Shown here: positions 23,801 to 29,800 of the stretch, piece by piece | Layout of the letters: each line of letters begins with the position of its first letter | Numbering within the stretch: position 1 is the stretch's first letter | NCBI RefSeq assembly: GCF_032854445.1 | Contig: NC_088303.1 | Location: forward strand, 16,191,501 to 16,255,500 | From: Liolophura sinensis | Lineage: Eukaryota > Mollusca > Polyplacophora > Chitonida > Chitonidae | Direction: 5' to 3' | DNA length: 64,000 bases | Translations under genes and position numbers: made by a program | Notes under the pieces: generated by a model | What the model was told of the DNA's origin: nothing | What the model saw: only the letters and a program-made list of their open reading frames with translations | The model's database searches: none

Positions 23801-26800
23801 GATTTTTGACACCTTACCCTTCAGCTGTTCACACTGAAATGATAATCAGAAATCAACACATAAAAGGACTTCACAAAGCAAAACAATGACAGGACATCAG
23901 AAACCAGGACATGGACACCACATGGACACTACTGATAATATGGATATAGGCCTAAAAAGTGCAGCTTTATGCGAATCTTTCATATCTTTACATATGCTCT
24001 GTTCCAAATATGTGACAATTTGCAGTTCCATTGATGACTCACTTGAAATTTTCTTTCTTTTTAAAGGCACTTCAAAGTTTCACAGCAAAGGGTAAAACAA
24101 ATGCTGCATTTGCAAAGCACACAAAATTCCACAGCATGAAAAGAACAAACATCCCAAAACATACACATGTAAAAGCATGTCATACATGCAGTTTTATTTT
24201 CCAGTTTAAGGATTAACACAATGGCATTCAACAACAGACTGGCACTCAAGTCTACAAGGCTGTCAATTTGGTTTACAGTAATGCTAAAAACCCTGAATAG
24301 AACAACTAGGAAATTGCTTAAAACTTACTGAACAGCGGGGGCAGCTCCAGTCTCCGTCTGGAATGATGGTCATGGGTGGGTTCAGACAGTGGGTGTGGTA
24401 CGCTGACGGGCATGTATCACAACACAACAGCTCACCACCATCTTTGCACACACGACAAAACTCCATGTGTTCGTCCTCCTCCTGCTCGTGAATTCCCTCC
24501 CCTTCCTGGAGAAGAAAGACAACAACGATGAGGGGCTAATAAGTTCACCTAGGCTGGTACTTCAACATTCTCTATGTACTACACTACATATGGCTCCACA
24601 ATAAGGTACTGTAATTTCCAAAAAGAGATACAGATGACACCTCTGGTTCAAGCTGAACTGACCACTGTTTTTTTGTTGTACAGGAGTAATATGTCCTCAG
24701 GATGTCCACAAAATGTGATTGCAAAGTCAAGAATGACTACAACACTTATGCCCAAGTGACTTGGGGTGGGAAAGCTTCCTCATTGGTCCCAACTGTATTA
24801 ATACTAATAAACTCCCAATTACTACTGCACTCTGAAAATATGAAAGTGTGAATTGTGGGAATGCTCTACTCACACAGTGTGGGCAGCTCCACTTGCCCTC
24901 TGGAGCCTCCTCAAGCTCTGGGTCCAGACACACCAAGTGGTAGGCCCTGGTGCATGTATCACACAGGATTATCTCCCCTCCCTGCTGACAGACTTCACAG
25001 TAGTCCTGATGATCAGTCTGCAAGACACAAAAAAAAATCAAATCAATACAATATCTTTACCAGAAGTATTGGATGTCAACATGTTTTAGAAACATACACA
25101 TTTCATACTATCCATTTCAAACAAAATTCATCATTCTGGAGCAGATAAATGCCATTAAAGAATCTGATTTTACTCACAAAAGGATATTATCAAAGACAGT
25201 GAAAACTTCTCAACAGATATCCAGAAGTTAACATTCAACAAAACAGGAAAACTTTTCTGAAGAAGGGTGTTACGCATCAATCAAATAATAATAAAAAAAA
25301 AAAAATCAAGAGATAATGCCGCTGGCACTGTGATCATAAAAATGTTTTTTCATTTCAACTTACTGTCTTTACCTCATATCCTTCAGCGTCCGGGTCATCA
25401 GGATATTTGTTTGTTGTCTTGGTTTTCTTTTTCTTCTTCTGTCCCGTTCTCTTCGTTTTGGGTTTCTTCACCTCAGCCTTGGATTCATTTAGAACAGCAG
25501 CCTCCTCCAGTTGCCTCTCAAATTCCTCATCACTCGTGTTGTAGGCATTTTCATCCTCATCCTGCAAGACAAAGACAAATGTTTTAAACTCCAAGTAACA
25601 CTTGCTCTACTACACATTGACAATTGTATCAAATACAGTTGTGCTGTCCTGTTTAATACAATGTTCTTATCCAAAATATATTAAGAGTATTTTCATAAAA
25701 CAAAATATGAAATACAGTTAACTTTGAACAAGAATAAGCACAAGTTCACAATAGCTACGGCATGACTTAAACAGGCAAATGTGAATGGCCCATATTAAGA
25801 CAGGATATCAAAAATGTGACTGCTAACTGACAGCGTGGCTTACAGAGCTCCTTGTCTCGGCTAGATCATGTCTAATATTCGGATATAACAGGAGTTGACA
25901 TGATGCTTACAGGAGATTGTATTTTCAATCGGTTTCTTGCTCTATTACAGCAAAGCCAATACACATATAAAAATATTGGCTGCTTAGAACAGAATTTAAT
26001 AATGAAGATAATTCATTTAGAAAGTTTGCAAGTTTTCATCAAAAGCAAAGAGGTGTAAGAATGCATCTCGCATCTTTATACACCTAATTTTGTTATTATG
26101 CAAAAACTACTACATGAGATAACACAAAAAATAAACAAATACCGTGTAAAAATTGAACGAGTAAAACATGTATCAGCGCCAGAGAAGAAATTAATACAAA
26201 ACCACTTACAGAGCTGTTTTTCTTCTTCTTTTTCTTCTTAGTTATTTTGATTTTCAGAGGAGCCACAGATTTCTTGCTTTTGGACTTCTTCTTTCCAGAT
26301 GGAGTGTTCTTATCCGATTCTTCTTCTTCTGGGATGAAATCTTCACTCGGGTCATCCACTGTGAAAAAAATCACTGGTATGAAAAAACTGTCACTTCTGT
26401 GCAACTCAACTGCTTCATTTAAATGTACCCGACACACAACTCCAGCAACCTGGAGGCTGTTGGTATTGCCGGGCCAAAAATAGTATACAATATGAAAGAT
26501 ATGCAAAATTCAAATCAAATTTAGCTGACCAAGCAAACATGGCACCTACCAGGTTCAGGATCCACTTCTACTGCAGCTTCCGTTATTGACATGTCCTTCG
26601 TAGATTCAGAATCATCTAGTTTGGAGGACTTTGATGGAAGAGTGGCAGAGAACTCCCTCCACTTGGCTCCCATTAACATCACAATTTTTGGCATTGGGAC
26701 TTTGGGATTTTCAGCCACCACCAGAGGGCGTATGTGTTGGCAATAGACTTTGTAATTTGTCAAATTCACGTAGTCCTCTTCATCGTAGATTAAGTCCACA

Positions 26801-29800
26801 TCGTTCAACCCGAGCTCACGACAAACTTCCTCTGATGTTCTCTGTTGCTCCTACAACCATAAATGGGTTACGTAAGTTATATCATACACATACCTAAGTC
26901 ATTAACCGGAAATCCCTTATATTTTTATGATCGTTATTATTAAATCATTATGTCCAATCTCACAATCTCCATGACGCAAGGCATGCAACTCGTCACATTT
27001 CAGACGAATTTTAGCAATATGAAAATATATGACGAGACTTCACTGAATTTAGAAGTTTCAGTCCCATTCCAATACAGATATTTTCGCTACAAATGGCATT
27101 TACCGATAGCCTTCTTATTTACAACAGACATATGGTTATGCCACTTTGCCCTGCCTCTTCTAAGTAAATTTTCAACATATGTATGACACATTTTTATGAA
27201 ATGTTTTAAGAGAATAAATTTCAATCATTTCAGTACCAAGTCTGGAGTGACGGCTGATTCGGACTCATCTAGCTTGGAGGACTTTGATGGAAGTGTTGCA
27301 GAGAACTCCCTCCACTTGGCCCCCATTAACATCACAATTTTTGGCATTGGGACTTTGGGATTTTCAGCCACCACCAGAGGGCGTATGTGTTGGCAATAGA
27401 CTTTGTAATTTGTCAAATTCACGTAGTCCTCTTCATCGTAAATTAAGTCCACATCGTTCAACCCGAGCTCACGACAAACCTCCTCTGATGTTCTCTGTTG
27501 CTCCTACAACCATATTGGTGTGTTTTAAGATACGTCCTACACATGACTAAGCAAGTGACACCTAACTCCCCAGTCTTGTGACCATTGCCCTCCATTCAAT
27601 ATTTATGTAAAATCTTACAACCTGAATGACAAAATGCATGCAACTTGTCACACTTTCTGATAAAGAGTACACCAGAAATGGCATTTACCTATAGCCCTTT
27701 TTTATACATTTGAAAACAGACATATGGTTATGCCACCTTGTGATACCTCCATTCAGTAAGTCTTCAAACTACATGTATTTATCACACAATTTCCATCCCC
27801 TGAGTAACAAATTTGGTGAGTGTACAGTACCCTCATCCTCTCAGCTTTAGTCTTCTTCTTCTTAGTCGGGCTTGGTGCGACAGGCTCCGGCTCCGCAGAC
27901 GTATTTGCCTCTTCGGCCTGTCCTAGCTCCTCGCCCTCCGCCGTTGTGTCATTGGGTGCAGACTCTTCTTGTTCTGGAGGATCAGCCTGGAACAGTTCCA
28001 CAAGAATTCTTAAAATATATTCTTTTCCACATCAGCAGCAATCAAGCCAGTTTTATAGTGCTTTGGACACCTGTTACTAATTTATTTGATTGGAGAGGAG
28101 ACCATCTCATAAAAAAAATTTAAAAAAGGGCCTTGCTCTTTTTTTTTTGTTAAAATTTTTATTTTGATAGAACTTTTTTTATATTTCTCTGAATGTGAAG
28201 TCGTATAAAATCTAATATATATTTAAAAAAATCGAAACATAAAATTCCAAACCAAAACAATTTGGTTTGAAATCAGTGCGGCTATCTCTGCTAATAACAT
28301 ACAAAAATATGACCAACCTCAGCATAGTCGCCATCAGCAAAATGTGCACTCTCAGATTTGCTTTTCTTTTTCTTCTTTGATTTTTTCTTCTTCTCGCTGC
28401 CATCTTTTATTTTTCTTTTCTTTCCACGCTTCTCTTGAACATAGGTTTCTTCTGCAAAGAAAATTAGAACAGGAAAGATTAGCCAAACTGATATAAGACA
28501 ATTATGCAACATTTATTCATTTCTTTTCCGAAGAAGTCTTCCAGGAACAATAATCCCACACAGAAAGGATCGGTTAAACCTTTAAAACATTCATGGAAAT
28601 TCTACAACCACGCTGATGTTGTAAGACATAATATCCAGGCCTATAATTTACGTCACAAACAAGTTTTGAGAGGCCTGTAAACTTTGAAACATCTGTTCCT
28701 GTAACAGTATATCAGTCATTATCAGATGAAAAACAGAAAGAAGTTAAATGTAAACAGAGCTAAAATAGCCTACAATGGCTTCCATACAAATCAAGCTGGC
28801 GTCTCCTGCATGCAAACCCAAATTCTAATGATATGAGGAAGCGGGATGCAACTGAAGTAAATTGCACAATAAGAAGGTCAAGGTGGCATGTGTATACATT
28901 TCAGCCTATCTGCTGACAAGATAGCTCAAAGACCAGGAGATTGTTGTTACTGATCTCTGGACAATCAAGACTGTTGACAGTAAGCAGAATATAAGTCTAT
29001 TCCATAATAATCCATAAGTATAGTCCATAATTTCATGGAATTATTTCAATTTCAGTGAAATTATAGGTGATAATGTAGTTGAGATCTGAGTCAACTATCT
29101 GGGTGAAGTTTGTTGGGAAGACATATCGGTAACATGAACAACACACTTTCACAGAAACCACATAGAACTTTTTCTCTGCGTTTCAAGTATATACATGTAC
29201 ATAGAACCTGTGTGAGAGGTTCACCTGCCATGACATTGAATCAGACATTACTTTTGCATGAATCTTTGTAAAAGTGGGTTTTGTTGTACTAAAAAAATAG
29301 ACCTTCAGATTCTGTAGCACAACAAGTGCAAAAAATCTCTCTGTTGTTGGTTTCTCCACAAACAGTCAACTAATCGTTTGTTCAACTCTTACTTAAACAG
29401 TTTTGCCCACTGTACGTAAGACTTCCACTTTATTATGCCTTATAAATCTTACAGAATATTTGATATCTTGTATTTTTCACCAAAAATTAAGTTGGAGTTA
29501 AGCAGTCAGTAGTATAAGTTTGAATGGGAAACATATTTAGTGAGCACAATTACCACTGGTGAGTGACAATCAGTGAATTTCAAGTATTCTACAGTTCTTC
29601 AAATGTGATCAATGATGCAAGCTTTAACACAGGGAATCGATCTTCAATGCAAGCCAATCAGCATCGGTTCTGTACTCCCTTGACTGTAAATTTATGACTT
29701 ATTCTGTGCACCAATACAAGTCTTCAGAATTTCTACGTGAGATCCAGTTAACACTTTCACATGATCCTGTTTCCTTAACTTTACTCTGCATGACATAACT

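Follow-up and report, generated by a model that had tools for sequence, protein, structure and literature searches.

The window analysed here is a stretch of 64,000 nucleotides (nt) from the chiton Liolophura sinensis (contig NC_088303.1, positions 16,191,501 to 16,255,500 of the forward strand), and its minus strand carries a Mi-2 (CHD3/4/5) gene running from about 28.5 kb to 1 kb in window coordinates. Read from its sequence, this gene contains a tandem duplication of an intron and the exon that follows it; the exon encodes the HMG-box-like CHDNT domain, and its copies are called U (upstream) and D (downstream). Tandem exon duplication as a process is ordinary. The assembly was built from 14x HiFi coverage of a genome with a heterozygosity of about 1.2%, and haplotypic duplications were purged (PMC11068029); its authors later corrected the species name from L. 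japonica to L. sinensis (PMC12441733). The features around the duplication are these, a slash marking the exon boundary:

28318..28451, minus strand: exon E-1, coding for a lysine-rich N-terminal region; exit phase 0; start placed by eye at tttgcag/AAGAAAC; donor GAG/GTTGGT
27831..27986, minus strand: exon E0, 156 nt, phase 0-0; acidic and lysine linker ahead of CHDNT; weak donor AGG/GTACTG
27504..27830, minus strand: intron 0, 327 nt; shares ancestry with the U-D intron
27676..27739, minus strand: predicted RNA hairpin of intron 0, beginning 91 nt past the E0 donor
27237..27503, minus strand: upstream CHDNT exon, copy U (267 nt, phase 0-0); matches D up to codon 83 and ends in the tail AVTPDL; weak donor TTG/GTACTG
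26851..27236, minus strand: U-D intron, 386 nt; a homologue of intron 0 that carries insertions
27091..27147, minus strand: second copy of the predicted hairpin, beginning 89 nt past the U donor
26550..26850, minus strand: downstream CHDNT exon, copy D (301 nt, phase 0-1); donor CTG/GTAGGT; retains the 3' end that fits E1
26210..26358, minus strand: exon E1, 149 nt, phase 1-0; basic linker with VAPLKIK
25373..25561, minus strand: exon E2, entered in phase 0; proposed donor GAG/GTAAAG

The gene carries the domains of a Mi-2. CHDNT is recognized by Pfam (PF08073) at E 8.5e-24 in U and 2.7e-23 in D joined to E1, and a PHD finger (PF00628) lies in 24727-25056. Other exons were placed by tblastn with a human CHD4 guide sequence: the guide puts a second PHD finger at 24484-24329, which completes the expected pair, the tandem chromodomains and SNF2 ATPase in exons from 23833 to 11011 (50-92% identity), and the C-terminal exons. 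The sole piece of the chromodomain and ATPase stretch submitted to Pfam, 11999-12301, gave no match, so the assignment of that stretch comes from the guide. CHDCT2 (PF08074) scores 29.8 bits against a cut-off of 27.7, its match in that exon being confined to profile positions 2-22 of 146, and the last piece of the gene, 976-1329, had no Pfam match. The likeness to CHD3, CHD4 and CHD5 is seen by Pfam for CHDNT, PHD and part of CHDCT2, and through the guide for the second PHD finger, the chromodomains, the helicase and the C-terminal exons.

A preliminary description of this DNA had proposed that the CHDNT exon is duplicated with 79 identical residues and about six silent changes, and the alignment bears this out: residues 1-79 are the same in U and D, the synonymous changes fall at codons 8, 21, 61, 69, 70 and 77, and PF08073 is found in both. 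Its exon boundaries and phases hold as well (U, 27503..27237, 267 nt, phase 0-0; D, 26850..26550, phase 0-1). Past codon 79 there is one replacement (codon 80, E/D) and codons 81 and 83 differ silently before the tails diverge, making eight silent changes and one amino-acid change over 83 codons. The alignment extends over 296 nt at 93% identity, far beyond chance, with 119 bases unchanged between codons 21 and 61. The window that holds both copies is free of N, and U keeps its reading frame and both splice dinucleotides. Searching the genome (609,464,459 bases in 632 contigs) with the 89-residue U peptide at E up to 0.001 found matches only at U and D. Compared with the solved human CHD4 domain 2n5n, the D peptide aligns to its residues 9-82 of 86 (E 2.1e-21), and U alone holds the domain because the matching region of D falls within the 79 residues common to both. 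The Pfam HMG_box profile (PF00505) stays below its curated cut-off of 25.4 bits, at 23.9 for U and 22.9 for D with E1. A structure prediction of U alone, made without an alignment, reached a mean predicted local distance difference test score of 47.8 and was not used.

The introns that precede the two copies are themselves homologous, which argues that intron and exon were duplicated as one unit. They align with 212 of 300 columns identical (88 differ) plus insertions and deletions, a difference of 27-29%; the Jukes-Cantor (JC) distance is 0.33 in two alignable blocks (69 of 256 positions differ) and 0.37 overall. The last 11 intron bases before the acceptors of U and D are the same, and the first 40 or so bases of the U-D intron show no significant likeness to intron 0 (p 0.18). 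A genome search with either intron, very common words skipped, returned two matches each, the intron itself and the other one. Set against a heterozygosity of about 1.2%, a divergence of 0.33-0.37 indicates that the duplication is old. The preliminary description, which was right about the duplication, had set the exon identity against that of the flanking intron; the upstream intron was in fact copied along with the exon.

A neutral, unconverted U would be expected to diverge about as much as the introns (JC 0.33-0.37), and the exon body diverges far less. The silent distance (dS) between U and D is 0.122 over 79 codons and 0.159 over 83; compared with the intron blocks (0.33; 69 of 256), the difference has a Fisher p of 0.014 for 79 codons and 0.059 for 83, so that the exon has likely, but not certainly, changed more slowly than the intron, in line with the earlier expectation of an exon identity above that of the intron. 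The longest gap without a silent change, 40 codons, has p 0.04, and a run of this length could reflect either a conversion tract or silent sites under constraint. Constraint on the protein was judged from the scarcity of replacements. If D were constrained and U neutral, 0 amino-acid against 6 silent changes in 79 codons would have a probability of 0.0024 with equal rates and 0.0068 with transition bias, and 1 against 8 in 83 codons would have 0.0020 and 0.0071 (the transition-biased values are approximations in which the site ratio was cut by a quarter). With no replacement among the 79 codons against six silent changes (P 0.002-0.007), U is unlikely to be drifting as dead sequence, and coding constraint probably acts on both U and D, one of the two options, beside recent gene conversion, that had been suggested before.

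The reading frames define what the two copies could do. Both E0-D-E1-E2 and E0-U-D-E1-E2 are open, so the earlier claim that D alone and U with D are productive by phase holds through E1 and E2. The companion claim, that U alone is not productive, is true of U joined to E1, which runs into a stop, and fails for U joined to E2, since E0-U-E2 with D and E1 skipped is open. Skipping U and D to reach E1 gives a stop, skipping U, D and E1 leaves the frame open, and D joined to E2 gives a stop.

These observations point to a model in which a tandem duplication within Mi-2 took in intron 0 and the greater part of the CHDNT exon. The downstream copy D would have retained the 3' end of the ancestral exon, which still fits E1, while the upstream copy U would have acquired a short divergent tail and a donor in phase 0, features that make it a candidate in-frame cassette exon. 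Skipping U would give an ordinary Mi-2, and including it a Mi-2 with two identical HMG-box-like domains separated by about 15 residues when measured between the parts that align with the human structure. An optional double-CHDNT protein is the most likely product on this evidence. The HMG box-like domain spans residues 145-225 of CHD4 (PMC10112965); it binds nucleic acids, its role in remodelling being described as unknown, and CHD4 without residues 1-355 shows lower sliding and lower substrate affinity (PMC9726900). Because the CHD4 domain binds nucleic acid, an extra copy would most simply add DNA contact, and the double-domain Mi-2 would grip DNA more firmly, like the paired boxes of HMGB proteins. 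We infer the use of U in mRNA, its cassette behaviour and the stronger DNA binding from these features; taken as a whole, from duplication to firmer hold on DNA, the explanation seems to us on balance probable.

Splice-site strength bears directly on the model. Donors were measured against 18 of the 20 mapped introns of the same gene (leave-one-out range -0.1 to 12.4 bits), leaving out two with poor protein support (donors 22078 and 11010, of which 22078 is itself a poor donor); this yardstick is biased to good donors, because donor choice had carried a small consensus bonus. E-1 scores 7.35 bits, D 6.0, E1 4.0 and E0 -2.1, the E0 donor AGG/GTACTG being under all 18 reference donors and an alternative in-frame E0 donor at 27882 scoring -2.8. 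The acceptors of U, D and E1 score 2.6, 2.1 and 12.9 bits, and three of the 18 reference acceptors are lower than those of U and D.

Several points weigh against an optional cassette and its proposed effect. The U donor TTG/GTACTG, at -4.9 bits, falls under all 18 reference donors and is the lowest of the donors assigned; 83% of all GT dinucleotides on the minus strand score as high or higher, and an alternative in-frame U donor at 27252 (-0.14) does no better than the poorest of the 18. Through conversion from D, U could also stay similar for a time without being used. The origin tests gave no decisive source for the last six codons of U and its donor: the last 25 exon bases of U show no significant likeness to the 3' end of E0 (global p 0.96; local p 0.48 with 12 intron bases), to the tail of D (local p 0.31) or to the 1.3 kb downstream (local p 0.20). 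A gain of poly(ADP-ribose) binding should not be taken for granted, since a CHDNT-containing piece of Drosophila Mi-2 did not bind this polymer (PMC3145624). As for the donors, poor ones fit optional inclusion and disuse equally. The start of the U-D intron resembles the intron after D at p 0.039, and intron 0 does so at p 0.15, neither decisive. U and E0 have the donor hexamer GTACTG in common, and the hairpins begin at nearly equal distances past these donors (89 and 91 nt), which favours, without proving, that the U donor was copied from E0.

Could U simply be dead, or nearly so, rarely spliced in and kept like D by gene conversion? Its donor, the weakest assigned, would be explained, and so would an exon dS of 0.12-0.16 below the 0.33 of the introns and a 119-nt unchanged run that resembles a conversion tract (p 0.04). 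Conversion, however, erases silent and amino-acid changes alike, so the 0 replacements against 6 silent changes accumulated since the last conversion still argue for constraint, and the frame and splice dinucleotides of U are intact; we regard a dead or nearly dead U as possible though rather unlikely. A different use of U is offered by the open E0-U-E2 frame, in which U would replace D together with E1 and give a single-CHDNT Mi-2 that lacks the basic linker. E1 is lysine-rich, and its VAPLKIK also follows CHDNT in human CHD4 by alignment; E1 would be the counterpart of CHD4 IDR2, whose basic residues raise the nucleosome affinity of the human protein (PMC9726900), so its loss could matter. 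This route requires joint skipping of D and E1, though, whose donors are good (6.0 and 4.0 bits) and whose acceptors are usable (2.1 and 12.9), and it appears improbable.

Mutually exclusive use in the usual sense, either copy followed by E1, draws on the belief that such pairs are born of tandem duplications that include introns (PMC6071210). Each exon of such a pair should on its own be in frame with the next, and here only D is: joining U to E1 breaks the frame and meets a stop, which makes this reading scarcely credible. An assembly artefact or collapsed alleles would have in its favour the modest 14x HiFi coverage (PMC11068029) and nothing else. Introns that differ at 88 of 300 columns plus insertions and deletions are far from a heterozygosity of about 1.2%, haplotypic duplications were purged according to the same source, and no N interrupts the two copies; such an origin is extremely improbable. 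The optional cassette with a doubled CHDNT remains the reading that we favour.

The duplicated introns also hold a conserved element. In the blocks AAGGTGGCATAACCATATGTCTGT and AGGGCTATAGGTAAATGCCATTT of intron 0, 3 of 47 aligned columns are changed relative to the U-D intron; in the rest of the intron 85 of 253 are (p 8e-5, a post hoc comparison). The two blocks are complementary to each other, and in either intron they fold into the same 19-pair hairpin, the loops being of unequal length. All 38 pair cells are standard; two pairs are altered on one side only and none on both, so covariation gives the hairpin no support. Mononucleotide shuffles of the conserved hairpin gave p 0.006 and 0 of 500, yet 733 of 8300 gene windows (minisatellite left out) fold at least as stably as the intron-0 hairpin, and its stability is therefore ordinary. 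Docker-selector control of an exon depends on intron elements able to pair in competing ways around it; here pairing of the arms crosswise between introns (-17.5 and -17.7 kcal/mol) is close to that within introns (-17.1 and -18.1). A hairpin model searched across the window found no further convincing match (next best E 0.36), and an Rfam search of 26300-28700 at E up to 5 returned three matches, all far under their family cut-offs.

Outside these introns, the 5' arm with up to 3 mismatches occurs at 30 places in the genome, comprising the two introns, 16 in one tandem array and others, against 8 for a reversed control; a 14-base core taken from the 3' arm is matched exactly at 15 places, its reversed control at 6. 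Near copies of the 21-base arm include L006 (C3:14551121-14551141, 1 mismatch), about 45 bases past an apparent exon donor of another gene, and L007 (C5:782081-782101, 2 mismatches). Taken with its flank, L007 shows 75% likeness to intron 0 across 56 nt (E 2e-4, within a small set selected for having the arm), and a genome search with a 301-nt stretch around it finds only itself. The arm may be an old dispersed repeat or a shared intronic motif. UGCAUG, an RBFOX-type motif, is kept in both introns (27642 and 26987); it was given no weight as a signal, the same strand of the window having 32 such hexamers, and the U-D intron does not preserve a second hairpin that surrounds the motif (p 0.61).

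It has been proposed that competing structures arise when an intron is duplicated along with a single stem-loop arm (Ivanov and Pervouchine, PMC6071210); in the chiton the whole stem-loop, not one arm, is duplicated. An RNA switch can be imagined here, in which local pairing would admit U, whereas the 5' arm of intron 0, by pairing with the 3' arm of the U-D intron, would loop U out. We consider such a switch improbable, and the hairpins are a lead, not proof of regulation.

How does this arrangement compare with known systems? Like the tandem exons of Dscam and srp (PMC6071210, PMC9741552), the chiton pair has adjacent homologous exons, a duplicated intron, weak splice sites and complementary elements in flanking introns. 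Unlike those mutually exclusive exons, its phases allow D or U with D, and not U followed by E1. Human CHD4 has one significant domain match in chain 6ryr (residues 151-225), whereas the chiton gene has two CHDNT exons. Two HMG-like domains in a row are the layout of two-box HMGB proteins and the one predicted here, with the differences that the chiton domains are identical to each other, lie in a remodelling ATPase and fall under the Pfam HMG_box cut-off. No report of a double CHDNT in Mi-2 was found in the titles and abstract openings of the open-access papers listed by the searches, which is not proof that it is unpublished.

Other repeats and genes were seen along the way. A 45-bp minisatellite lies inside a Mi-2 intron at 13191-15555 (52.6 copies, 93% matches); it is mostly open reading frame on both strands (709 and 718 residues), which a unit divisible by three permits. 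The Mi-2 intron 21048-19282 holds a short tandem duplication at 19885-20214 (143 bp, about 2 copies), and another lies at 37459-37844 (187 bp, 2 copies). On the plus strand, 47234-49477 carries exons of a kinesin motor gene, with Pfam Kinesin in two open reading frames and a sequence that resembles the KIF20 group; an open stretch at 60339-61022 (227 residues, no Pfam match) is perhaps the end of this gene. Elsewhere in the genome, scaffold C99 is a head-to-tail mitochondrial array with 7 COX1 copies (among them 8348-9688; one of the 7 is partial) about 15.5 kb apart, probably an assembly concatemer, and one more copy is on C632. On the mitochondrial contig the gene order is nad3-nad2-cox1-cox2-atp8-atp6, with TGA coding for tryptophan; the names other than COX1 were assigned by reading, and the order is a molluscan one.

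If the reading favoured here is true, the chiton gene would be a case in which exon duplication doubles a domain inside one protein and does not give mutually exclusive variants. If the RNA switch were also real, the chiton would tune its Mi-2 between one and two HMG-like domains. A Mi-2 with one or two copies of the domain, if made, would be a ready-made experiment in an animal on the role of the CHD4 HMG-like domain.

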